64,000 nt of DNA from an uncultured Acidobacteriia bacterium. Its GTDB lineage: Bacteria > Acidobacteriota > Terriglobia > Bryobacterales > Bryobacteraceae. The notes below the pieces were generated by a model. That model saw nothing but the letters and a program-made list of their open reading frames with translations, had not been told where the DNA came from and did no database searches. A program made the position numbers and the translations under genes. The DNA lies in NCBI GenBank assembly GCA_903828455.1, contig CAIKMJ010000046.1, positions 62,001-126,000 of the forward strand, given 5' to 3'. Of this stretch, positions 1-13,155 are shown in pieces (position 1 is the stretch's first letter; each line of letters begins with the position of its first letter).

Positions 1-477
1 GTGCGACTGGCTGCCCGACGTGGTGCCCTGATCCGGCGTAAAGCCGGTCTGACAGAAAATCAGCCGGACGTTGCTGAGCGGCACGGAGAGCTCTTCGGCA
101 GCGAGCTGAATCTGGACGGTCCGGATGCCCTGACCGAATTCGCATTTGCCGGAGTAGACAGTGACGATTTCATCGGCGCCGATGGAAACCCAGGAATCGA
201 CCTTCGATGCGTCTACCAGCCCGGTGGGCTGGAGCGGATCGATCGGAGTCGGCGGAGTGGTGGTTTGAGCCGAGGCATGAGTCAGTGAACCGGCGGCGCT
301 GAATCCCACGACGAGAGCTCCGGCAGCTTTGGCGGCGGTCTTAAAGAAGTCACGGCGCGAAGGTGCATTTTCATTCAACGCGGCCAACGCATCGGGCGTC
401 ATGTTCGACTGGTCGAACTGGCCGACGGAACCGGCAAGTTTATCCATTGCGCGTTTTCCAAAGATTGCGGATTTCAT
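1..477 (-). CDS. Molybdopterin-binding large subunit of a xanthine dehydrogenase/IorB-like molybdenum hydroxylase (partial, N-terminal 159 residues)
   Basis: The reading frame runs off the left edge, so only the N-terminus is present. It carries a twin-arginine signal (SRRDFFKTAAKAAGALVVGF, about residues 40-59), then a segment with GKCEFGQGIRT and a PDQGTTSG-like motif typical of the molybdopterin large subunit of aldehyde oxidase/isoquinoline 1-oxidoreductase enzymes. Folded export through Tat fits a cofactor-loaded periplasmic hydroxylase. Its ATG overlaps the stop of the upstream 2Fe-2S subunit gene (ATGA), so the two are translationally coupled. The substrate cannot be told from this fragment. 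Confidence 0.85.
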   Translation of the reverse strand, partial: MKSAIFGKRAMDKLAGSVGQFDQSNMTPDALAALNENAPSRRDFFKTAAKAAGALVVGFSAAGSLTHASAQTTTPPTPIDPLQPTGLVDASKVDSWVSIGADEIVTVYSGKCEFGQGIRTVQIQLAAEELSVPLSNVRLIFCQTGFTPDQGTTSGSQSH

Positions 478-950
478 TGAGTTTTCCCCTGTGCGTAGAG
501 AGAAAGCGCATTCAGCATGCGCGGGTGCGAGTGGCAGCGGCAGAGCAGCGGAGTCTGGCCCAGAGCATTCAGAATCTGCGCGCTGGTGGCGCCGGGATTG
601 GCGTCAATGAAAGCCTTTCCGTAAAGCATGGGGCCGCTCAGACAGAATCCGCACTGCATCGCCTGCTGAGAAATGAAAGCCTGCTGGATCGGATGGGGAT
701 TGGCAAGAGTGCCAAGGCCTTCGATCGAGACGATCGTGCCGCCGGCGGCAGCAGCGATGCCGGTTGTGCAGGAACGGATGGGAGCACCGTTCAGAAGGAC
801 CGTGCAGCAGCCGCATTGACCGAGGCCGCAGCCGAACTTGGGTCCCTGCAGATGGACGTTCTCCTGCAATATGTAGAGCAGTGGTGTGTTGGGGTCGTCG
901 ACGTTCACCGAAACGGAGGCGCCGTTCACGGTCATGGTGTATGTGGCCAT
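474..950 (-). CDS. (2Fe-2S)-binding small subunit of the molybdenum hydroxylase (IorA/CoxS-like)
   Basis: 158 residues, the usual length for this family. The N-terminal plant-type ferredoxin site is C41-x4-C46-x2-C49-x11-C61 (CGLGQCGCC...C). The C-terminal helical domain has the second cluster site C100GFC103 and C137RC139. It passes electrons from the molybdopterin centre of the partner subunit (1-477) to an acceptor. The partner has a Tat signal and this subunit has none, so it is probably carried out as a complex. No FAD subunit is visible in the window, which fits IorAB-type two-subunit enzymes that use a cytochrome acceptor. Confidence 0.92.
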   Translation of the reverse strand: MATYTMTVNGASVSVNVDDPNTPLLYILQENVHLQGPKFGCGLGQCGCCTVLLNGAPIRSCTTGIAAAAGGTIVSIEGLGTLANPHPIQQAFISQQAMQCGFCLSGPMLYGKAFIDANPGATSAQILNALGQTPLLCRCHSHPRMLNALSLYAQGKTQ

Positions 951-1308: not shown

Positions 1309-2682
1309 ATGCGGAACTTTAAAAAGACAGTCATCCGGGTTGCGCTCGTCGCAGCAGCTATTGCCACGCCGATCATCTATGCGTATGAATACGGGCCGGA
1401 TCCTGGATATACCGGGGCTCCTGGCGACAACAAGAACGGATGTGTCGCCTCCGGATGTCACGTCGGCACGCCGAATTCGGGGCCCGGTTCGGTGACTATC
1501 ACGGCTTCGGGCGGAACCACTTACGTACCGGGTGGGCCGGCCCAGACAATTTCGGTGAAAATCACCGACGCAACCGAGAAGAAATACGGCTTTGAGCTTA
1601 CCGCGCGAGTGGACAGCAACCCCACAACGCTCGCGGCCGGAGTTCTGGCGTCCACGGATGCACTCACACAGGTGGTCTGCACCGACGGTTCCATTTCACC
1701 GGCAGCCGGCTGCCCGGCAAAATCGGGCGGTACCCTGCAATGGATCGAGCATACGCTCGCGGGCTACAACAAAAGCGCCACGTCGCCGAGCTATACGTAT
1801 ACGTTCAACTGGACTCCGCCCGCAACGAACGTGGGCACTGTTACGCTTTACGCCGCAGGGAACGCTGTGACGGGCGCGCTGGTGGTAACCGGAACGCACG
1901 ATTATCTGACTTCGCTGAAGCTCTCGCCGGCAGCTGCGAATCCGAATGCTCCGACGATTTTGTCCGGTGGCGTCAATCCACTGAACAGTTCCGCGACAAC
2001 CATCCAGCCCGGCGCATGGACACAGATATTCGGGACCAACCTGGCGTCGGCGCTCACGCTCTGGAAGGGAGACTTCGCGACCACGCTCGGTGGCACCACG
2101 GTGTCGGTGAACGGCAAGCCGGCGTCGCTGTATTTTGTGAGCCCCACGCAGATTAACTTCCAGGCGCCCAACGATACTGCGACAGGCAGTGTGCCGGTGG
2201 TGGTTACAACGCCGAACGGCACAGCGACATCGACGGTGACGCTGGGAACGGTCGGGCCGTCGTTTCTTCTGCTGGACAACAAGCATGTGACCGGAATTAT
2301 TTTGCGCAGCAACGGGTCGGGCGCGTACGGTGGCGGAGGTTACGACATCATTGGCCCCACAGGAAGCTCGCTGGGATTCGGCACGGTCGCGGCAAAAGCG
2401 GGCGATGTGGTGGAGCTTTATGCGGTCGGCTTCGGCCCCACGAATCCGGTGATGCCCTCCGGCCAGGCGCTGGCAGCCGGCCAATTCGGGACGGCGACGA
2501 GCCCAATCACAATTCTGATAAACAACAAGCCAGTGACGCCGTCATTTGCCGGCATCACGCTGGCTGGCTTGTATCAGATCAATCTGACGATTCCCAGCGG
2601 GCTGGGCACCGGCGATGTTCCGATCGTCGGCAGCGTGGCTGGCGTGCAGACCCCGTCGGGCTTCGTGATCAGCCTGCAATAA
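1309..2682 (+). CDS. Secreted CX4CH-motif protein with Reeler/choice-of-anchor-V-like N-domain and TIGR03437 C-terminal domain
   Basis: 457 residues. A signal peptide ends near residue 25, followed by GYTGAPGD and a single C45-VASG-C50-H51 motif, then a beta-rich domain resembling choice-of-anchor V/Reeler-type domains. The C-terminal half (about residue 222 onward) matches the Solibacter C-terminal domain TIGR03437 (PASLYFVSPTQINFQAP). Choice-of-anchor-V proteins usually carry CxxCH; here four residues separate the cysteines, a spacing known in some c-type haem sites, so it may bind one haem or a metal. A paralogue with the same motif at the same residue numbers lies at 3078-4457, next to a decaheme cytochrome. 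ATG chosen with GGGA seven bases upstream. Confidence 0.8.
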   Translation: MRNFKKTVIRVALVAAAIATPIIYAYEYGPDPGYTGAPGDNKNGCVASGCHVGTPNSGPGSVTITASGGTTYVPGGPAQTISVKITDATEKKYGFELTARVDSNPTTLAAGVLASTDALTQVVCTDGSISPAAGCPAKSGGTLQWIEHTLAGYNKSATSPSYTYTFNWTPPATNVGTVTLYAAGNAVTGALVVTGTHDYLTSLKLSPAAANPNAPTILSGGVNPLNSSATTIQPGAWTQIFGTNLASALTLWKGDFATTLGGTTVSVNGKPASLYFVSPTQINFQAPNDTATGSVPVVVTTPNGTATSTVTLGTVGPSFLLLDNKHVTGIILRSNGSGAYGGGGYDIIGPTGSSLGFGTVAAKAGDVVELYAVGFGPTNPVMPSGQALAAGQFGTATSPITILINNKPVTPSFAGITLAGLYQINLTIPSGLGTGDVPIVGSVAGVQTPSGFVISLQ

Positions 2683-3077
2683 ATTAAACGCGGGCGGACC
2701 GGCATTCTCCGCTTCCGAAGGCTCTCCTCGCGATGCAGCATCGCGGCCCGGAGTCGAACGCGGAAGTTGAACTTGCCGGTCCGCCGCATTTGCGCGGTCG
2801 AGCTTTTCAGGACGATTCCGTGCGAGCCCGCCGCGCAGGAATTCGTGGCCGGAAGAGCAACAGCCCCGGGCCGCGACGGCCGCCGGGATTCGTCGCCGAA
2901 ACAGCCTTATTACACTAAACAAATGTCTGGCCCCTCATGGGGACAGGACTGCGTCCGGCTGCGAGACAACTGAATCCTGCTCGATCTTCAGAACCGGGAA
3001 ACCCATCTTCAGCTGCGTTCGTCGGTCATAGATAACTCCAACACAACAATGGGAAGGAAGGTCCGTTCGGAATTTTG
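2683..3077. other. Intergenic spacer between the two CX4CH paralogues
   Basis: 395 bp with no convincing gene. The first third is taken up by the inverted-repeat element at 2693-2785. The rest (2786-3077) must hold the leader and probably a promoter for the three-gene cytochrome operon starting at 3078. GGGAAGGAAG at about 3051-3060 is purine-rich but 17 bases from the ATG, so it is a poor ribosome-binding site. Confidence 0.35.
2693..2785. repeat. Nested inverted-repeat element (about 93 bp)
   Basis: Outer arms GGCGGACCGGCA (2693-2704) and TGCCGGTCCGCC (2774-2785) are perfect 12-bp complements. Inside them is a perfect hairpin CGCGATGC-A-GCATCGCG (2729-2745). A shorter CTTCCG/CGGAAG pair lies between arms and centre. 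It starts 11 bp after the stop at 2682. It could be a factor-dependent terminator, an mRNA-stability structure or a small non-autonomous mobile element; no U tract follows. Confidence 0.6.
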
Positions 3078-4457
3078 ATGAGGCGCGACAAGAAAGTATT
3101 TCTGCGTTTTTTGCTGGCTGCAGGCGCGATTGCGACGCCAATCGTTTATGGATACGAGTTTGGACCGCCTCCCGGATATTCCGGCGCTCCCGGCGACAAT
3201 GCCAGCGGCTGCGCGGCAAACGGCTGCCACGGCGGGGCGATCAGTCCAAAATTTACGGGCTCGGTCTCGATCACCGCTTCCGGCGGTACCAACTACATCC
3301 CGGGGCAGGCTCAGACGATCACCGTAACGGTTACGGATTCCGCCCAAAAAGGTTATGGCTTCGAGATGACGGCAAAGGCCACCGGAACGAATTCGGCCGG
3401 ACTGCTGACCGCCGGCAGCGACGGCTATACCCAGGTGATCTGCGCGGATGGTTCAGTGTCGCCGGCAGCCGGATGTCCGGCATCCCGCGGCAGCACCCAG
3501 CAGTGGGTCGAACACACCCTGGCCGGCTGGGAGAGCAGTGGCACTCCGCCAAGCCACTCGTTTAAGTTCACGTGGACACCGCCGGCTACCGCTTCCGGCA
3601 CCATTACTTTCTACGCAGCCGGTAATGCCGTGGCGAATGCCGCGCCACCTGCCAATGATAAGGGCGCTCACACGTATTTCACGAACCTCGCGCTGACGCC
3701 GGCCGCGGCCAACCCGAATGCGCCGGCAATTACGCCGGGCGGCATCAATCCGCTGTACAGCACGGCGACGACGATTCAGCCCGGCGCGTGGGCGCAGATG
3801 TACGGCACGAACCTGGGTCCCACCGGAACCACGTTGTGGAAAGGCGATTTCGCCACCACACTCGGCGGCACTTCCGTAACGGTGAACGGCAAACCCGCAT
3901 CCCTTTACTTCGTCAGCCCCACGCAGCTGAACTTCCAGGCGCCAAACGACACGGCAACGGGCAGTGTCCCGGTGGTTGTCACAACGCCGAATGGAACGGC
4001 AAGTGCGATCGTTACGCTTGGCGCCGTGGCACCGTCATTTCTCGTGCTGGACGGCAAGCATGTCACCGGAATCATTTTGCGCAGTGACGGCTCGGGCGCA
4101 TACGGCGGCGGGAGCTATGACATTATTGGCCCCACCGGAAACTCACTCGGGTACGCCACCGTGGCAGCCAAAGCGGGCGATTCGGTGGAGTTGTTCGGCG
4201 TTGGCTTTGGTCCCACCAACCCCGCCCTGCCTTCCGGACAGGCTCTGGCCGCGGGCCAGTACGGCACAGCGACGCTGCCGCTCACTCTTCTGATCAACAA
4301 CCAAAATGTGATACCTTCTTTCGCAGGTGTCACGCAGGCCGGTCTGTACCAGATCAATCTGACGATTCCAGGCGGCCTGGGAACGGGAGACGTTTCGCTG
4401 GCCGGGACAGTCGCGGGCACTCAAACGCCGGCGGGGGTTGTGATCAGCCTGCAATAA
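3078..4457 (+). CDS. Secreted CX4CH-motif protein, paralogue of 1309-2682, with TIGR03437 C-terminal domain
   Basis: 459 residues from the ATG at 3078 (a TTG directly before it at 3075 is an alternative). Same architecture as the paralogue: signal peptide ending near residue 25, GYSGAPGD, C45-AANG-C50-H51, a beta-rich Reeler-like domain, and the TIGR03437 domain over roughly the last 230 residues. The C-terminal halves of the two are close to identical over long stretches, the N-domains less so. The stop lies 6 bp before the decaheme cytochrome gene, so this copy is in one operon with the cytochrome and porin. I infer a surface or periplasmic partner of the electron conduit; haem binding by CX4CH is not proven. 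Confidence 0.82.
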   Translation: MRRDKKVFLRFLLAAGAIATPIVYGYEFGPPPGYSGAPGDNASGCAANGCHGGAISPKFTGSVSITASGGTNYIPGQAQTITVTVTDSAQKGYGFEMTAKATGTNSAGLLTAGSDGYTQVICADGSVSPAAGCPASRGSTQQWVEHTLAGWESSGTPPSHSFKFTWTPPATASGTITFYAAGNAVANAAPPANDKGAHTYFTNLALTPAAANPNAPAITPGGINPLYSTATTIQPGAWAQMYGTNLGPTGTTLWKGDFATTLGGTSVTVNGKPASLYFVSPTQLNFQAPNDTATGSVPVVVTTPNGTASAIVTLGAVAPSFLVLDGKHVTGIILRSDGSGAYGGGSYDIIGPTGNSLGYATVAAKAGDSVELFGVGFGPTNPALPSGQALAAGQYGTATLPLTLLINNQNVIPSFAGVTQAGLYQINLTIPGGLGTGDVSLAGTVAGTQTPAGVVISLQ

Positions 4458-4463
4458 AAACTT

Positions 4464-5429
4464 ATGCTCAAGTGGATTGGCATTCTCGCGCTTCCGCTCG
4501 CACTGTGCGCGCAGGCAACTGCGCCACAGGCGGCGGCGCCGCAGACTGCAGCGCCTCAGGCTGCGGCCAGCGGACCGAATCATTATGTCGGGTCGGCAGT
4601 TTGTAAAACCTGCCATCCCGACGTGACGCTGAATTTCTATAAGAACCCGCACTACAAGAGCGTCGCGTCGGGGAAGGAAGCGCCGGAAAAGACCGGCTGC
4701 GAGGGATGCCACGGAGCGGGCGGAAATCATGTTGCGGCGCGCGGCGGCAAGATGACCATTCCACACGCGTTTTCGCAGATGACGCCGAAGCAGGTGCTGG
4801 ACGACTGCCTGCAGTGCCATTCGAAGGATATCTCGAAGGCCAACATTCAGCGTTCGATTCACACCGAATCGGATGTGGTCTGCAGCAACTGCCATTCGAT
4901 CCACAAGCCGGCCACGCCGAAGTTCCTGCTGACGAAAGTGCAGCGCGAGCTTTGCTACGACTGCCACCAGTCCGTACGGGCACAGTTCGATATGCCGGTG
5001 AAGCACCGGGTGAACGAAGGCGCGGTGCAGTGTTCGGACTGCCACAATCCGCACGGAACTTTTGCGTCGACCTGGTCGACCGGCCTGAATTCCCGCATGG
5101 TGGATCAGAGCCCCGGGGGCGAAGAGGCATGCGTGAAGTGCCATCAGGAAAAGCGCGGGCCGTTCGTCTACGAACACGCGGCGATCCGGGTGGGCGGTTG
5201 CGAGACCTGCCATTCGCCGCACGGCTCCATGTACAGCAAATTGCTGCGGCGGCCGGTGGTTTACACGCTCTGTCTTGAATGCCACAACGGCGCGGGCAGC
5301 GGCGTTTCGGCGGCGGGCGTGCTGGGGCAGTCGAGCGCGCACAACATGCTCGATCCGCGCTTCCAGAACTGCACTCTGTGCCATTCGCGTATTCACGGCT
5401 CGAATTCAGACGCAAACCTGCTGAGGTAA
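4464..5429 (+). CDS. DmsE/MtrA-family decaheme c-type cytochrome
   Basis: 321 residues with a signal peptide (cleavage probably near residue 17-18) and an Ala/Pro/Gln-rich linker to about residue 36. Ten CxxCH haem sites begin at C47, C79, C115, C140, C164, C190, C223, C246, C270 and C303. Extra histidines between motifs can serve as distal ligands, giving a bis-His wire. Size and haem count match periplasmic MtrA/PioA/DmsE decahemes, which plug a porin and move electrons across the outer membrane. The gene sits 6 bp after a CX4CH protein gene and 7 bp before the porin gene. The Cys in LALC of the signal is not a good lipobox. Confidence 0.92.
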   Translation: MLKWIGILALPLALCAQATAPQAAAPQTAAPQAAASGPNHYVGSAVCKTCHPDVTLNFYKNPHYKSVASGKEAPEKTGCEGCHGAGGNHVAARGGKMTIPHAFSQMTPKQVLDDCLQCHSKDISKANIQRSIHTESDVVCSNCHSIHKPATPKFLLTKVQRELCYDCHQSVRAQFDMPVKHRVNEGAVQCSDCHNPHGTFASTWSTGLNSRMVDQSPGGEEACVKCHQEKRGPFVYEHAAIRVGGCETCHSPHGSMYSKLLRRPVVYTLCLECHNGAGSGVSAAGVLGQSSAHNMLDPRFQNCTLCHSRIHGSNSDANLLR

Positions 5430-5436
5430 GAACAGA

Positions 5437-7455
5437 ATGAGAAGACTTCTGATTCCGGTACTGTTCTCGGTCTGCGCCGCTGCGTACGTGCAGGAACTGG
5501 CAGCACAGGAGACCATTGCGCCCACCACGGGCGAGCGGGTGGGAAGTGCGCGCGGCGAAAACGTCGGCGCCTACAACGTGGTGCAGTCGTGGGAATTCGG
5601 CTACCGCTATGCGACGGTCGGCGGCGACGACGGCAAGTACCGCAGCGACGTAAACTACGGGCGCGGCGTTCGGCTGCTTTCCAGTTCACTGACCGTAAAC
5701 TCGAAGGACGGACACGGCAAGTGGTTCGACGAAATCGTCCTGACGACGCAGGGCCTCGGAAACGATCCCTATGAGTCGGCCATTCTGCGCGTGCAGAAGA
5801 ACCGGATCTATCGCTACGACATGACGTGGCGGCTCAACGATTACTACAATCCCGGGCTGACAACTGCGCTCGGTCTGCATCTGCAGAATACAAGCCAGCG
5901 CTGGCAGGATCATGAACTGACGCTTTTTCCGCAGAGCAAATTCCGGATTCACGCCGGATACGGACACAATAAAGAAGATGGCCCGGCGCTGTCCACCGTC
6001 AATCTTTTCGAGAATGAACGCGGCGATATTTTCACCCTGTTCAGCAACGTGCGGCGCGAATACAACTCCTACCGGATCGGCGTGGATGGCGAGTGGATGG
6101 GCATCCGCATGTCGGTCCTGCGTCGCTGGGAATTCTATAAGGAAGATACACCGTATTCGCTCGGCGGGCCGGGCGCGGGCCTGAACCCGACTGACGCCAC
6201 GACGCTGACGCAATATTATCGGTCTTCGCCCATTCATGGCGATACGCCTTCCTGGCTGGGAATCATTTCGAGCGAGCGCAGGCTTGTCGCCTTCAACGGA
6301 AGAATTTCCTACGCGGGTGGAACCCGCAACTTCGTTCAGAACGAATCCCCGGCGGGCACGGGACTCGGCGGAGCCGAAAGCTACGTGGTTCTCACCTACG
6401 GAAACGCAAAGCGTCCGACGCTGGTGGGCGATTTCAACGTCGCGGTGTTTCCTGCCGGGCGCTGGACGATCACGAATAATACGTCTGTCTCCAACCAGCG
6501 CATCGTCGGCGATTCGACCTACGAGCAGTTCAGCCTTTCCACTCTGAACGTGACGCTGCTGAATTTCCAGTTCCTCGGAGTCCGGCTGATTACGAATTCC
6601 ACCGACGTGCGTTTCCGCGCCACGAAGAAGTTGAGTGTTTTTGCCGGCTACCGCTATTCCAACCGTGAGATCCGCTCGATCCAATCGTCTTCAGATCCAA
6701 CTACGCCGTTTGAAAATACTCTGAACTCGCAGGTGAACATGATCCACGCCGGCGCGTTCGGACTGAACTGGACCATCGCCCAGCCCCTGCGGCTGCACGT
6801 TGCGGCGGAGGTCGGCCACAGCGACAATCCGTTCACGTCGATCGATCCGGCCAACTATCACACGATTGACGCGCGCCTGCAGTACCGCAAGAAGGCATTG
6901 TCCGGCGCGGCGGGATACAAGCAGAATTACAACAACAACTCGATGACGCTGACCTCCTACAGCTCTCACTCGCGGAACTATTTCGCGAATGGATCCTGGG
7001 CGGCGAACAGTTGGTTCTCCATCGATGCGGGATACAACAGGTTGCATCTCGATACGGCGGGCGGCCTGCTTTTCTTTGGCGGCCTGCCGCGCTCAACGCA
7101 GCAGACGGGCACATCGGTGTATCTGAGCAACATCCACGCTGGAAACCTCGGTGCGCGCGTGGCGATTCGCGGACGGGCTGACGTGTACGTGGGCTACAAC
7201 ATCACGCGGGACGCGGGCGACGGACGCGGCTCGCTGCAGACGCCGGGCACGGTATCGGCCCTGCTTTATAACGTGCAGACGTTCCCGCTGAGCTTTGAAT
7301 CGCCGATGGCGCGGCTGTCCATCCGGGTAACCGACAAAATCAAGTGGAACGCCGGATATCAGTATTACGGCTACCATCAGGACTTCGCGGTCAATTCGGT
7401 GCTGCAGAATTATCATGCCCACACCGGCTATACGAGCCTGCTGTGGGCGTTCTGA
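5437..7455 (+). CDS. MtrB/PioB-like outer-membrane beta-barrel porin partner of the decaheme cytochrome
   Basis: 672 residues: signal peptide (cleavage probably after LAAQ near residue 24), then alternating amphipathic strands rich in Tyr, Arg and Asn (for example WEFGYRYATVGGDDGKYRSD), ending in Phe as most outer-membrane barrels do (SLLWAF). The length fits the roughly 650-700-residue MtrB/PioB family that sheathes a decaheme cytochrome. The start lies 7 bp after the decaheme stop. The identification rests on length, barrel pattern and gene context; only a profile search would confirm the family. No N-terminal CxxC, which marks shewanella MtrB, is present. Confidence 0.8.
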   Translation: MRRLLIPVLFSVCAAAYVQELAAQETIAPTTGERVGSARGENVGAYNVVQSWEFGYRYATVGGDDGKYRSDVNYGRGVRLLSSSLTVNSKDGHGKWFDEIVLTTQGLGNDPYESAILRVQKNRIYRYDMTWRLNDYYNPGLTTALGLHLQNTSQRWQDHELTLFPQSKFRIHAGYGHNKEDGPALSTVNLFENERGDIFTLFSNVRREYNSYRIGVDGEWMGIRMSVLRRWEFYKEDTPYSLGGPGAGLNPTDATTLTQYYRSSPIHGDTPSWLGIISSERRLVAFNGRISYAGGTRNFVQNESPAGTGLGGAESYVVLTYGNAKRPTLVGDFNVAVFPAGRWTITNNTSVSNQRIVGDSTYEQFSLSTLNVTLLNFQFLGVRLITNSTDVRFRATKKLSVFAGYRYSNREIRSIQSSSDPTTPFENTLNSQVNMIHAGAFGLNWTIAQPLRLHVAAEVGHSDNPFTSIDPANYHTIDARLQYRKKALSGAAGYKQNYNNNSMTLTSYSSHSRNYFANGSWAANSWFSIDAGYNRLHLDTAGGLLFFGGLPRSTQQTGTSVYLSNIHAGNLGARVAIRGRADVYVGYNITRDAGDGRGSLQTPGTVSALLYNVQTFPLSFESPMARLSIRVTDKIKWNAGYQYYGYHQDFAVNSVLQNYHAHTGYTSLLWAF

Positions 7456-7467
7456 GCGCACCGCCGG

Positions 7468-8517
7468 TTACTTCGCTTCGCCGAACAGAAACGACTGCGG
7501 GCCGCCGATCTGCAGCAGCAGTCCGAGGTCGTCGCCGAGAAACCAGGCCGACTTCCAGCGCTTGCCGTCGAATTCCATAAAGCCGATCTCCCACGAACTG
7601 ACCCGGGCGTTGGATGGCGGCATGCCGAACAGGCTTTTGGTGTTGGTGGCGGACAGGCGGAACTGCATCATCACGTTGTCACCCTCGGCAAGGGCGTAGC
7701 CGATACGATCGCGGCGGTCGGGAAATGCGTCGCCGAACTTCGTGGCCGTGCGGCCCAGTTCAACCGAGCGGTCGATCAGATGTTTGGCGCCGCTGCGCAG
7801 ATACTCATCGTAGGGCGCGCCGGGGCGGTCCGGCAGAATTCCCGCGGGACGGTTTGCCGATTTGTACGCCGCAACCATGACTTTGTTGTGATACGCCGGC
7901 GTGTCCGCCGGATGCGCGAGCAGTTCGTTCAGGACGTCGTTGCCGTCCCGGGTGTCGTCGAGAATCGGCGGAACGTTCATCCGCCCGTCGCTGCGGGCAG
8001 GCAGACGCGAACCGAGCTGCATCAGCAGTCCTGCTTCATCAGCCATGAACCAGCCTTCCACGATCTTCTGATTCGCCACGCGGAAGACGGCAACTTCGTT
8101 AATGTCGAAACTCTTGCCGGTAGCGGGGATGCCGAACAAATTCCCTTTATGCGTCCCCTGAATGCGGGTCACCGCGCCGACCAGGTCGCCGTCGGCGATC
8201 AGGTGCTCAATCGTATCCGTGCGGTCCGGAAACACAGTTCGCAGCGGCTGCCCGAGCGCGGCGAGTTGCGAACCGGCGGCATTGCTTTCAAGATTCTGAA
8301 ACTCGGCCCGCAATTGCTTGTACGCCGGAGCCTGCGACGCCTCGCGAACCGCGGCGAAGCCCGCCTTCCCCTGTTCTTCGAGGTAACGTTTCACAACCGC
8401 TTTATTGCGGGCCTGAACCGAGTCCTGTGCCCACGCACCGCGCGGAGTGCCCAGGACCAAGCCGGCTGCGGCTCCCGCGCCGAGGCTGCTTTTCAGAAAT
8501 GTGCGTCGTGTCGCCAT
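7468..8517 (-). CDS. Tat-exported protein with two tandem SnoaL-like (NTF2-fold ester cyclase) domains
   Basis: 349 residues. The N-terminus MATRRTFLKSSLGAGAAAG is a twin-arginine signal, with cleavage probably after AWA near residue 30. Two related halves follow: one with FPDRTDTIEHLIADGD...GIPATGKSFDINEV...GWFMADEAGLLMQLG, the second with FPDRRDRIGYALAEGD...GMPPSNARVSSWEIG...AWFLGDDLGLLLQIG. Both resemble SnoaL-like polyketide-cyclase/ester-cyclase folds, so this is a tandem duplication. Catalysis is unproven; such exported copies may bind small molecules. The gene converges on the porin gene with only 12 bp between stops. Confidence 0.75.
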   Translation of the reverse strand: MATRRTFLKSSLGAGAAAGLVLGTPRGAWAQDSVQARNKAVVKRYLEEQGKAGFAAVREASQAPAYKQLRAEFQNLESNAAGSQLAALGQPLRTVFPDRTDTIEHLIADGDLVGAVTRIQGTHKGNLFGIPATGKSFDINEVAVFRVANQKIVEGWFMADEAGLLMQLGSRLPARSDGRMNVPPILDDTRDGNDVLNELLAHPADTPAYHNKVMVAAYKSANRPAGILPDRPGAPYDEYLRSGAKHLIDRSVELGRTATKFGDAFPDRRDRIGYALAEGDNVMMQFRLSATNTKSLFGMPPSNARVSSWEIGFMEFDGKRWKSAWFLGDDLGLLLQIGGPQSFLFGEAK

Positions 8518-8695: not shown

Positions 8696-11317
8696 TCAGT
8701 TCGCGCTCAGGACAAGCCCCGAAGGCAAGTCCTCGCCGAAGATGCGGCCGAGTGAACGCTCATCGCGTTCGGTCGAACCTTCAAGCTGCGCGATGAGCTG
8801 CGGATCCGAAACGCGGGCGCGGACTGCGGCCGACGTGACAGCGGAGACATCGCGCACCGGGTCGCCCGTATGGCGCGCCAGCGAAATCAGAGCGTCGTCC
8901 GATTTCGGCACCTGCAGCAGCGCTTCGATCCAGCGGGTCGCGACTGACGGCGAGAGCACCTGATTGGCCGGCCCGTAGAACAACTGTCGCGCACCCAGAC
9001 GCGAGAGGCACCAGAGCACCACGTCGTTGTATCCCGATTCCTTGCCCTGCTTCAGCAATGCGTCGCCCAGCTGTGTGCGGTTGCCGGCCGGGATGAGTTC
9101 CATGCTCGAAGCCGTGCGCCACATCTCGCGCAGCAGACTGTTATTCACTCGCTGCGGCTTCTTTCCCGGCTTCGGCAGCAGCACGGGAAGGAGGCGCTGC
9201 ACTATGTCGAACTGCTGATTGCGGTTGAGTCCGCCGGCGACGCGTCCCCAGAAGATCCACCAGTCGATTTCGTTCTGCACCTGATTGGCGAACTGCGGGC
9301 CGGCGGCGTAAATGCGGCGGACCTGCTCGATGCGGAAGTCATCGCCTGGATAGCCGAACCCGGGCCGCAGACAGAAACCGGCCAGATTGAGCCAGCGGAC
9401 TTCGATCGCCGCCCCGCGTTTGCGGTTTTCGATCTGCTCGATGAAAACATCGGCAAGGCGACGCGCCACATCGACCGGCCAGGAGTTGCGGCCGAGACCC
9501 AGCGCGGCTTCGAGTCGCGACGGCAGCTCTTCCGGCGGAACTTCGCCTTTCGCAACGCAGCCGCGGACGAGTTCGCACGCAGCATCAGCGGCCTCCTGGC
9601 TGACCACGGCGGCCGGCCGTCGGGACGCAACGTCGGCTCGCGCCTTCTTTCTCAACTGGAACTGCAGACGCCAGCGATTGTCGCTGATTTTGGAATCGCA
9701 CCAGGTTTCGAGCGTGCCGATTTCCGTGAGACGCGCGCCGAGCTTGACCGGCACCAGGCGTTCGCCGCCTTTGCCGAAGCGGATCACGGCTTCGAGCGGC
9801 GCGTGCTGGTGCAGCTCTTCTCCTTCCGTGAACGTGACCACGTCACCGGGCTTGTCCTCCGAGCGTGTCAGCGAACTCAGCAGCCGGAACGCGACCGGCT
9901 TGTTGGCCACGAGCTGAAGATCGCCGCGGTCGACTTCGACCGAATCTCCCTCCTCGGCACCGCGCGGAACGAGGCAGACCGCAGAGGAATCATTCAGCCC
10001 GACGTAATAAGCGCGCGGAAGGCCGCCACGAACCAGGATGCCCGAACCGGTGGAGCGAACGTACGAATAGTAAGCAGCACCGCTGGCAACGGCGAGGTCC
10101 AGATCGCGGTTCTCAAAAATAGCGGGACGTTTGCCGTACCAGTTTTCCAGTACATCGGCCACGCGCTGACGGCAGATTTCCGGGATGAAGAAACCGCCGT
10201 TAAAAAGGATGGCGTCGGGCGCCTGCCCGGCAGACTCAAGGCCCGCGGATTCCAGAAACGCCGCCAGATGCCGGCTGATTGCGGGATCGGAGACGTAAGG
10301 CAGACCGAGTTCGCGGAAGAGACTGCGCTTCTCTTCCTTCGGCTTTTCACCTCGCGGCGAGAGCGGAAGAAAGCCCTCCAGCGTGAGTTCCAGAGCTTCC
10401 GCGCGTGTGATGGTGGTCTTCATCGTGCCGCCGATCATCGACGAGCCTCCGCCGAGCACGCTGATTTCAACGCTCTCGCGATTCGGGTCGCAGAGCAGCA
10501 ATTCCTTCGCCGCCGAACACTGTCGGCGCAATCCGCTGCGCTGGCGGATGGAAAGCTGCTTTCCGAGCTTCGATTCCGCGAGCCACGCGAGAGTGAGATC
10601 GAGGTTATCGCCACCGAGCAAAAGGTGTTTGCCGACGGCCGTACGTGTGAAATCGATGCGGTCGCCATCGCGCGAGACACGAATCAGCGAAAAGTCGCTG
10701 GTGCCGCCGCCGACGTCGCAGATCAGAACGATCTGACCGTCGAAAAGCAGTTTGCGGGAGCGCTCGAAGTTATTGGCGATCCAGGAATAAAAAGCGGCGG
10801 CCGGCTCTTCGAGTAGCGTGAGCTTCGGAATGCCCGCGTCGCCGGCAGCCTTGACCGTGAGTTCGCGAGCCTCTTCATCGAAGGAAGCCGGCACGGTAAG
10901 GACGACATCCTGCTCGGCAAGCGGCCCGCGGCCCGAAGCGTCCCAGGCCTCGCGAATGGTGCTGAGAAAACGCGCCGACACTTCCACGGGCGAAAGCACG
11001 CGGCCGCCCTCGCCCGCATCCCACGGAAGGATCTTCGCGGTGCGGTCCACATCAGGGTTGGAAAGCCAGGACTTCGCGCTGTGCACGAGGCGGGTGGGCA
11101 CAATAGCGCCCTGCTCGCGGGCGTAAGTTCCCACTGGCTGGCCGTCTTCGAGAAACAAAAACGACGGCAGCGCGCGGCGCGATTCCACGCGCCCTGGCGC
11201 CACTAACTGCGGAATATCGAAGACCTGAACGGGCGGGAAGCTGGTGTCTTCCGCGTCCGCGGGGTCGATCCACGCGAGCGCGGAGTTGGTGGTTCCGAGG
11301 TCGATGCCGATTTTCAT
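8696..11317 (-). CDS. Hsp70-family protein with C-terminal DUF3731-like region
   Basis: 873 residues, longer than DnaK (about 640). The Hsp70 ATPase domain is clear: phosphate-1 loop IGIDLGTTNSALAW at the N-terminus, phosphate-2 motif ICDVGGGTSDFSLI, and the adenosine-binding motif DAILFNGGFF. The last 300 residues (LGLGRNSWPVDVARRLADV, RPGFGYPGDDFRIEQV, NEIDWWIFWGRVAGG) resemble DUF3731 rather than a normal peptide-binding lid. It is third in an operon, 5 bp after a second Hsp70 gene. Such DUF2760-Hsp70-Hsp70 sets are found in several phyla, but their client is unknown. It is not the housekeeping dnaK. Confidence 0.88.
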   Translation of the reverse strand: MKIGIDLGTTNSALAWIDPADAEDTSFPPVQVFDIPQLVAPGRVESRRALPSFLFLEDGQPVGTYAREQGAIVPTRLVHSAKSWLSNPDVDRTAKILPWDAGEGGRVLSPVEVSARFLSTIREAWDASGRGPLAEQDVVLTVPASFDEEARELTVKAAGDAGIPKLTLLEEPAAAFYSWIANNFERSRKLLFDGQIVLICDVGGGTSDFSLIRVSRDGDRIDFTRTAVGKHLLLGGDNLDLTLAWLAESKLGKQLSIRQRSGLRRQCSAAKELLLCDPNRESVEISVLGGGSSMIGGTMKTTITRAEALELTLEGFLPLSPRGEKPKEEKRSLFRELGLPYVSDPAISRHLAAFLESAGLESAGQAPDAILFNGGFFIPEICRQRVADVLENWYGKRPAIFENRDLDLAVASGAAYYSYVRSTGSGILVRGGLPRAYYVGLNDSSAVCLVPRGAEEGDSVEVDRGDLQLVANKPVAFRLLSSLTRSEDKPGDVVTFTEGEELHQHAPLEAVIRFGKGGERLVPVKLGARLTEIGTLETWCDSKISDNRWRLQFQLRKKARADVASRRPAAVVSQEAADAACELVRGCVAKGEVPPEELPSRLEAALGLGRNSWPVDVARRLADVFIEQIENRKRGAAIEVRWLNLAGFCLRPGFGYPGDDFRIEQVRRIYAAGPQFANQVQNEIDWWIFWGRVAGGLNRNQQFDIVQRLLPVLLPKPGKKPQRVNNSLLREMWRTASSMELIPAGNRTQLGDALLKQGKESGYNDVVLWCLSRLGARQLFYGPANQVLSPSVATRWIEALLQVPKSDDALISLARHTGDPVRDVSAVTSAAVRARVSDPQLIAQLEGSTERDERSLGRIFGEDLPSGLVLSAN

Positions 11318-11322
11318 ACGGT

Positions 11323-13155
11323 TTATTGAGCGGCGCGGCCGGGATCAACCGATTCGCGCACGTTGAATTCCAGCTTCCAGCGCCGCGCATCGCGGGCCAC
11401 GCACCAGAGTTGCAGCATGCCGGTTTCGGTCACGATTGTTTCAAAGCTCACCGGCACGACTTCGTCGGACTGCTGCCCCGACGGCAACCGGACTTCGACC
11501 GGCGAGAGTTCATCCAGCTCGCCGGCAAAGTCGTCGATCATATCGCCAGGACGATCGTCCTTGCGCGAGGCCGAGCAGAAGAAGCGGAACTCGGCCGTGC
11601 GATCCACCGCAAGACCGAATTCACGATTCGGGATCGCGACCGACGTGCCCTCTTCCATGCCGAACGGCGCGACCGTCAGCGCCTTGAGCGGAGCCGGAAT
11701 GCCGGGCACCGCGGGCATGGCGGATTCGATTCCCACATAGTAAGTTCGCGCGATGCCGCCGCGGATGCGCACACCCTTGCCGTGCCGCGCCGCGCCGTAG
11801 TAAGCGGCGCCGGCCGCCACGGCCTGCATCAGATTTTCGCCGGAAAGCAATTGCGCGGCTCCGAAGCCTTCCTCCGCGAGCCAGCCGTTCAGCACGCCGA
11901 GCAAACGGTCGCGTACGAAGGGCGCATGCAGGACGCCGCCGTTGAAAAGGACGTGCGTTGGACAGGCGAGGCCGGTCGATCCGCGCCGCACGGAGTTGTG
12001 TTCGGAGGCTGCAGCCTGCTGGCGGAGAAAACGCGCGAGGTGACGCGTGATGGCCGCATCGGCCGCGTAGGGCAGACCCATTTCCTGCAGCCCGCCGCTG
12101 CGCGTGAGACGCGGCATTTCGGTGCTGGCCACGGGCGGCAGGAACGCATCGAGTACCTGTTCGATCTGTTCGCGATGCAGTTTGGCGCGAAGCGTACCCC
12201 CGATGAGACTGGAGCCTTTGCCCGGAATATTGACAGGAACTTCGTCTGCCTTCGAATCCGGATCGAGCAGCTTTTCCTTCGCGAGGCGGCAGTTATTCCA
12301 AAGGGTCTGCAGCTGAAACGCGTCGATCTTCGTTCCCTTTGCCGCCAGTTCGCCCGCCACGGTATGCGCCAGAGCGAGGTCGATATTATCGCCCCCGAGC
12401 AGGATATGTTCGCCCACGGCGACGCGTTCGAGTTGCAGCTCGCCGGCCTGTTCCGTGACGGTGATGAGCGTGAAGTCGGTGGTGCCGCCGCCAATATCGA
12501 TGACGAGCACGAGATCGCCCTTCGCCACGCGCTGGCGCCAGTCTGGATGCCGCTCGATCCACGCGTAGAACGCGGCCTGCGGCTCCTCCAGCATAGTGAC
12601 GGTCGGATAACCGGCGGCCTCGGCGGCCTTCAGCGTGAACTCGCGGGCAACGGCGTCGAAGGAAGCCGGGACGGTGATGAGAACTTCCTGATCGGCGAAC
12701 GGAGCATCCGGATGATGCAGGTCCCACGATGCGCGCAGGTGCTTCAGGTATGCCGCCGAAGCCTGCACCGGAGAGACTCGCTCAATTCCTTCGGCAGCTT
12801 TCCACGGAAGAATGGGCGCGGTGCGGTCTACCGCGGCGTAAGACAGCCAGCTTTTGGCCGATGACACCAGTCGGCTGGAGACTTCAGCGCCACGGCGCTG
12901 CGCGAGCTTGCCGGTGACGAGGCGCGCACTTTCATCCCACGGAAGCGCGGTCGCGCCGGCCGGAAAATCGCGCTCGGAAGGTATGTACAGAAAGGATGGC
13001 AGCAACGGCTCGGCGCTGAGTTCGCCCGGCGCAGTGAGCTGCGAAACCGGCTCCATCGCAACAACCGGAGCAACTGCAGCTTCTTCCGCCAGAGAAGTTG
13101 AGGCGACCGCGCAATTGGTGGTGCCGAGGTCGATGCCGATAGCGTACCGCGACAA
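11323..13155 (-). CDS. Hsp70-family protein (short orphan type)
   Basis: 610 residues. Phosphate-1 loop YAIGIDLGTTNCAVAS at residues 4-19, phosphate-2 loop VIDIGGGTTDFTLI, adenosine motif THVLFNGGVL. The remainder, with RFFCSASRKDDRPGDMIDD and a short beta region, is smaller than the DnaK substrate domain. The N-terminal half aligns in order with the 873-residue neighbour, so the two are diverged duplicates. The stop of the DUF2760 gene lies 3 bp upstream and the next Hsp70 starts 5 bp downstream, indicating one transcript. No DnaJ or GrpE gene is nearby. Confidence 0.88.
   Translation of the reverse strand: MSRYAIGIDLGTTNCAVASTSLAEEAAVAPVVAMEPVSQLTAPGELSAEPLLPSFLYIPSERDFPAGATALPWDESARLVTGKLAQRRGAEVSSRLVSSAKSWLSYAAVDRTAPILPWKAAEGIERVSPVQASAAYLKHLRASWDLHHPDAPFADQEVLITVPASFDAVAREFTLKAAEAAGYPTVTMLEEPQAAFYAWIERHPDWRQRVAKGDLVLVIDIGGGTTDFTLITVTEQAGELQLERVAVGEHILLGGDNIDLALAHTVAGELAAKGTKIDAFQLQTLWNNCRLAKEKLLDPDSKADEVPVNIPGKGSSLIGGTLRAKLHREQIEQVLDAFLPPVASTEMPRLTRSGGLQEMGLPYAADAAITRHLARFLRQQAAASEHNSVRRGSTGLACPTHVLFNGGVLHAPFVRDRLLGVLNGWLAEEGFGAAQLLSGENLMQAVAAGAAYYGAARHGKGVRIRGGIARTYYVGIESAMPAVPGIPAPLKALTVAPFGMEEGTSVAIPNREFGLAVDRTAEFRFFCSASRKDDRPGDMIDDFAGELDELSPVEVRLPSGQQSDEVVPVSFETIVTETGMLQLWCVARDARRWKLEFNVRESVDPGRAAQ

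Follow-up and report, generated by a model that had tools for sequence, protein, structure and literature searches.

We asked whether three closely spaced genes in an uncultured acidobacterium encode an electron conduit through the outer membrane and, if so, what serves the conduit's outer end. The DNA analysed here (the window) is a 64,000-nucleotide stretch of contig CAIKMJ010000046.1 (positions 62,001 to 126,000) from a member of the Bryobacteraceae. The three genes lie on its plus strand: R1 (3078-4457, with its ATG start codon at 3078), a decaheme c-type cytochrome gene (4464-5429), and a gene for a large outer-membrane beta-barrel (5437-7455) whose product ends in ...LLWAF. The gaps between them are 6 bp and 7 bp. 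A sequence-only reading had placed the three frames at these positions, with a terminal Phe on the barrel, and we confirmed this on the sequence. We propose that the locus encodes a conduit of the MtrAB/PioAB type without an MtrC/OmcA of its own, and we add, as a guess, an accessory step by R1 and its neighbor R0. We put this explanation as a whole at a probability of roughly 0.78. Its decaheme-barrel core, at 4464-7455, is well supported by sequence comparison and modeling, and the pair is a probable route for electrons through the outer membrane.

The decaheme protein has 321 residues, ten CXXCH motifs, and an N-terminal signal sequence that we judged by eye. The ten motifs are not a product of chance, since 20,000 shuffled copies of the protein never held more than two (mean, 0.09). 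Against TIGR03508 (the DmsE family), it scored 262.7 bits, with a cut-off of 192.2. This places it in the MtrA/DmsE family, as the sequence-only reading had it. A phmmer search matched it to chain A of 6r2q, an Mtr complex (8.4e-36); we read this chain as MtrA, and the PDB table gives a different molecule name. 6R2Q is the MtrAB complex of Shewanella baltica according to PMC10654088. We also found that a profile of 102 decahemes of the window's lineage (lineage A, described below) matched, with a probability of 100%, a profile of 15 decahemes that adjoin PF11854 barrels in other acidobacterial families.

By sequence, the barrel is nearly an orphan. It matched nothing in Pfam, with no hit to PF11854 (MtrB/PioB) at E 1; in the PDB it found nothing at E 1, either as a single sequence or as a profile; and its match to GSU2204 was weak (24.8 bits). 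In addition, 162 of its 672 residues have a predicted local distance difference test score (pLDDT) below 70 in the structure model. These results weigh against a conduit. The missing PF11854 and PDB matches would also suit an ordinary channel or a TonB-type receptor, with the decaheme serving a soluble periplasmic reductase. TonB-dependent receptors do occupy many of the next places in the fold search, from E 1.6e-10. Against this alternative, MtrB came first in that search, at a clearly higher template modeling (TM) score. The AF2 model, built from 40 sequences (the window's and 39 of 40 listed relatives, L029 being left out), had a pLDDT of 79.2, a predicted TM score of 0.71, and about 26 to 28 strands by our own count. 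The C-terminal Phe, F672, is invariant in all 40 aligned barrels. Among 781 PDB fold matches, the top one was 6r2q_B (E 1.6e-13; TM, 0.65/0.67). None of the other 49 matches shown exceeded a TM score of 0.48; TonB-dependent receptors and the copper transporter OprC made up most of them.

Profile comparison also connects the barrel to MtrB/PioB. Using hhalign, we compared 96 lineage-A barrels with 16 barrels called by PF11854 and obtained a probability of 98% over 589 columns, or 97% with query and target exchanged. Controls gave 1.2% for a reversed profile, 3.9% for 7 large TonB-like barrels, and 3.9% for 25 small barrels. The PF11854 barrels themselves reached 13.9% with the TonB-like control group, seven 1065-residue proteins that we take to be TonB-like from an N terminus. 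Thus, the part of the sequence-only reading that linked the barrel to MtrB/PioB did not hold in the Pfam and PDB sequence searches and did hold in the fold and profile comparisons. Because the predicted fold and the controlled profile comparison point there, we concluded that the barrel is a predicted distant relative of MtrB/PioB, diverged enough to fall outside PF11854. Together with the decaheme's family, this supports the proposal that the two proteins form the core of an outer-membrane conduit.

The barrel is also tightly paired with the decaheme. A decaheme-based scan fetched 59 loci, and a relative of the barrel followed the decaheme on the same strand in 58 of them; the sole exception was a 25% match from Chloroflexi. 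With these results taken together, we regard the ordinary-channel alternative as very improbable.

A total of 177 loci had a decaheme match, and 118 of these were distinct. By decaheme identity to the window, they fall into two lineages: A, the window's own (48 to 69%; 104 loci), and B (36 to 41%; 14 loci). Lineage A comprises 103 loci assigned by script and L176, which we placed there manually on the basis of its barrel. The barrel profiles took in 96 of the 104 lineage-A and 13 of the 14 lineage-B barrels, and the lineage-B barrels reached the PF11854 barrels less well (93% over 373 columns). Lineage A is present in most sampled genomes of the window's acidobacterial family: we counted an A-type barrel in 89 of 121 (rows of at least 38% identity, fragments included), a set of genomes that differs from the set of 104 loci. 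TIGR03508 was over its cut-off in 111 of the same 121. Of 297 genomes sampled from the phylum, 68 scored above the PF11854 cut-off, and the window's own genome (G000) gave no match. The 71 genomes listed with a PF11854 match include no member of the window's family, of which the sample may contain few; among the nonmatching genomes listed, its members are G000, G024, and G089 only, and 206 further nonmatching genomes lie outside the list.

The sequence-only reading also held that the locus has no MtrC/OmcA-type cytochrome. We found none there; apart from the decaheme, no open reading frame (ORF) of at least 80 codons in the 64-kb window has two or more CXXCH motifs. An OmcA/MtrC-type ten-haem gene was likewise absent from 103 of the 104 fetched lineage-A stretches, some of which are short. 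The lone exception, L108 (the same as L059), has one 300 bp after the barrel. Besides L108, only L140 has another ORF with at least three CXXCH motifs; this frame has five and lies at the far end of the stretch.

Lineage-B loci consist of an OmcA/MtrC decaheme, a second decaheme, a barrel, and a four-CXXCH cytochrome, and some add a pentahaem protein. One complete B cluster lies on contig C41 of the window's own genome (L063 4336-12012, minus strand) and encodes an OmcA/MtrC decaheme, an MtrA-type decaheme, a barrel, a four-CXXCH cytochrome c, and a NapC/NirT-type pentahaem protein. In this genome, the OmcA/MtrC decaheme scored 488 bits against TIGR03507, and the pentahaem protein passed the NapC/NirT Pfam cut-off. 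The window's conduit might borrow its surface partner from C41. That cluster holds the only OmcA/MtrC match in the genome, and L108 offers a relative with such a gene close to its barrel. Against borrowing, the C41 cluster has a decaheme and a barrel of its own, and the two barrels are only 26% identical over the stretch that matches (the decahemes are 41% identical). We consider borrowing unlikely.

The other candidate for the outer end is R1, which the sequence-only reading had made the third partner. R1 consists of a choice-of-anchor-V (Reeler-like) domain with one CX4CH motif, followed by TIGR03437; its signal sequence was judged by eye, and it has no CXXCH. It scored 153.5 bits against TIGR03437 (cut-off, 29.05) and 76.5 bits against choice-of-anchor V (NF041895; cut-off, 42). 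The Pfam Reeler match was below threshold (15.6; cut-off, 21) and was seen for R1 and not for R0. R0 (1309-2682, plus strand), 395 bp upstream of R1, also has a CX4CH and passes the curated cut-offs of both families. The two genes are a tandem duplication (1309-4457) with 70% identity. R1 is thus present as the sequence-only reading had described it, and the second copy is an addition to that account. Within the window, R0 and R1 are the only ORFs of at least 80 codons with CX4CH, and in the genome they are the only choice-of-anchor-V matches; TIGR03437 has 61.

The CX4CH of R1 aligns with a CXXCH in the choice-of-anchor-V proteins of L164, L166, and L177, which favors its being a putative haem site. 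The protein at L010 also has CX4CH, and that at L023 has CX5CH.

To place R1 among its relatives, we looked at the genes upstream of the decaheme in the 89 lineage-A loci that have at least 2.5 kb of upstream sequence; the remaining 15 of the 104 have less. To call TIGR03437-type and choice-of-anchor-V-type genes, we used profiles made from each half of R1; for the window, L032, and L034, the TIGR03437 match was confirmed with the NCBIfam model. With the window included, a TIGR03437-type gene lay within 2.5 kb upstream in 26 of the 89 loci (24 of them co-directional), versus expectations of 2.8 and 1.4 that rest on the density in G000 only, with 57 genes assumed from its 61 matches. Across all 104 stretches, the 241 kb just upstream contained 30 such genes and the other 1,123 kb contained 5, a difference in density of about 28-fold. 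In lineage B, 28 kb of upstream sequence had none and 154 kb of other sequence had 1, and the 10 loci of this lineage with 2.5 kb of upstream sequence all lacked one there. A choice-of-anchor-V gene lay within 2.5 kb upstream in 5 of the 89 (4 by script and L010 by hand), versus 0.08 expected if each genome is assumed to have a rough two such genes. These genes are co-directional in the window, L164, and L166 and divergent in L023 and L010; L177 has its copy more than 7 kb downstream. The three-gene order is therefore not conserved among these loci, and the neighbor table rules out R1 as an obligate partner. As a candidate third partner and surface terminus, R1 is partly supported: proteins like it are found in 5 of the 89 loci, which is far above a rough chance level, and TIGR03437-type proteins of different composition take this position in many more loci.

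These counts bear on another reading, in which the conduit consists of the decaheme and barrel only, as in PioAB and MtoAB, with an outer haem exposed and R0 and R1 as unrelated neighbors. It shares the core with our best explanation and differs in the third step only. In 84 of the 89 loci, the search of the 2.5 kb upstream gave no choice-of-anchor-V gene, though such a gene scores over the cut-off in 85 of the 121 genomes of the family. Two near relatives of the window by tree path, L004 (where GatB comes next) and L008, have neither a choice-of-anchor-V nor a TIGR03437-type gene within 2.5 kb upstream; a third, L022, has too little upstream sequence. Conduits of this two-protein kind are also already published (PMC10654088 and PMC6831781). 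On the other hand, the 6-bp spacing suggests that R1 and the decaheme gene are cotranscribed, and the choice-of-anchor-V rows stand at separate places in the tree, far above the rough background rate. We give this reading slightly less than an even chance.

The tree itself was a quick FastTree of 99 rows (95 lineage A and 4 lineage B). TIGR03437 neighbors were scattered over many branches, and the choice-of-anchor-V rows fell at four separate places (four changes for four rows, with L010 labeled by hand). The window's own clade has 10 rows, and a TIGR03437-type protein is encoded nearby in 4 of them; in one of these (L005), the gene is divergent and at a contig end. In the adjoining clade of 24, none of the 20 rows with enough sequence has such a gene within 2.5 kb upstream, and 4 could not be judged. 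This pattern is consistent with an old beta-propeller operon that was several times lost or replaced, on a tree that cannot separate gain from loss.

The upstream protein seen most often is about 1,000 residues long, has matches to beta-propellers, and ends in TIGR03437; it is encoded within four genes upstream in 21 of the 89 loci. A small outer-membrane barrel lies between such a protein and the decaheme in 23 of the 89. At L034 (the same as L096), the gene 38 bp before the decaheme encodes one protein (5791-7941) that joins TIGR03118 and TIGR03437 to an amicyanin-like cupredoxin. Instead of a multihaem cytochrome, interchangeable proteins tagged with TIGR03437 might serve the outer end of a family-wide conduit: a beta-propeller with a small barrel, a one-haem Reeler-like domain, or a cupredoxin. 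We regard this wider reading as rather doubtful. If it is true, one conserved wire would be adapted to extracellular donors or acceptors that differ between species.

Other neighbors were seen at individual loci. A cytochrome P460 gene (L101 5288-5824) lies 44 bp before the decaheme-barrel pair. At L138 (4175-9128), genes for a Rieske protein, a cytochrome b/cytochrome c fusion, the decaheme, and the barrel are consecutive, and the b/c gene overlaps the decaheme gene by one base. This row and its overlap suggest that the inner partner in that genome is quinone linked, possibly a bc-type complex wired to the outer-membrane conduit. Downstream, a 103-residue protein is encoded within four genes in 36 of the 104 loci. 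We judged several neighbors to be due to chance or to have another function: GatB and a peroxiredoxin at L004, a phospholipase B-like protein at L165, an outer-membrane efflux protein at L170, a sigma factor at L125, a terminase-like protein at L098, a glycosyltransferase at L043, and a CPBP protease at L061. Genes for a type II/IV secretion ATPase and F, which we take to be Tad pilus genes, and for EPSP synthase, SIS, and rhodanese proteins lie beside the beta-propeller type; we read these as stable synteny and not as partners.

In our best explanation, the ten-haem cytochrome would be threaded into the wide barrel, and electrons would pass between the periplasm and the cell surface, either outward or inward; we infer both the complex and the crossing. 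The inner partner may be quinone linked, as in L138. As a guess from co-location, R1 and R0 would be secreted, probably with one haem each, and serve at the outer end, or close to it, as an interchangeable accessory, in the place that other TIGR03437 proteins occupy in other members. R1 is thus a possible accessory or surface partner. Several points tell against this step. The R1 structure model drew on four sequences and was not of usable quality (pLDDT, 54.3). The neighbor calls rely on profiles derived from R1 halves. The lineage-A loci are related, so binomial figures are not probabilities of independent trials. The assumptions behind both expected counts and the rarity of choice-of-anchor-V genes upstream count on the same side. 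ORF calling missed the choice-of-anchor-V gene of L010 and left a 4.1-kb gap upstream in L142, so some upstream genes may have been missed.

Around the locus, two minus-strand genes just upstream of R0 encode a [2Fe-2S] small subunit (window 474-950) and a molybdopterin-binding large subunit of the aldehyde/xanthine oxidase type (L065 7970-10477). Also on the minus strand, window 8696-13155 encodes two adjoining large proteins whose N termini look Hsp70-ATPase-like (IGIDLGTTN) by eye.

Acidobacteria are dominant in soils and are suspected iron reducers (PMC3669403). Because the window-type barrel is missed by Pfam's MtrB/PioB model, surveys that use this model or MtrC would undercount the capacity for electron transfer of this kind. 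Should the TIGR03437 proteins prove to be genuine partners, they would form a new class of surface terminus and offer a way into the function of a domain that is abundant in this genome. Acidobacterial decahemes, MtrCAB in Bryobacterales, and PioA/MtoA homologues in Acidobacteriia have been published (PMC3669403, PMC8805035, and PMC10654088), as have porin-cytochrome complexes in Holophaga (PMC7399161). The changing TIGR03437/choice-of-anchor-V neighborhood was not found in the literature searched, which left out most subscription journals and all bioRxiv preprints.

Compared with known systems, the locus shares with MtrCAB of Shewanella (6R2Q) an MtrA-type decaheme and a large MtrB-like barrel. 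It differs in having no adjoining MtrC/OmcA, the mark of MtrCAB, and in its barrel, which shares only 12% identity with MtrB when the folds are aligned. In Geobacter, GSU2203 matched the decaheme at 202.6 bits; the curated cut-offs (325 and 350) are much higher than this score and the barrel's score to GSU2204, and the window barrel has no CXXCH. MtrCAB Group 5 is described from Acidobacteriia/Bryobacterales (PMC8805035), and many relatives of the window's gene bear Bryobacterales or Solibacter titles. The C41 cluster, compared by make-up alone, shares the OmcA/MtrC, decaheme, and barrel of this group; the genome's second, complete MtrC cluster is of a kind already in print. In contrast, the window belongs to a separate lineage by its decaheme and by the near absence of OmcA/MtrC-type genes from the fetched stretches. 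PioAB of Rhodopseudomonas and MtoAB of Sideroxydans consist, like the window's pair, of a decaheme and a barrel without a surface multihaem cytochrome (PMC10654088). The window locus differs from them in that its barrel lies outside PF11854, in that the 64-kb window has no multihaem CymA-like ORF, and in its TIGR03437 neighbors.

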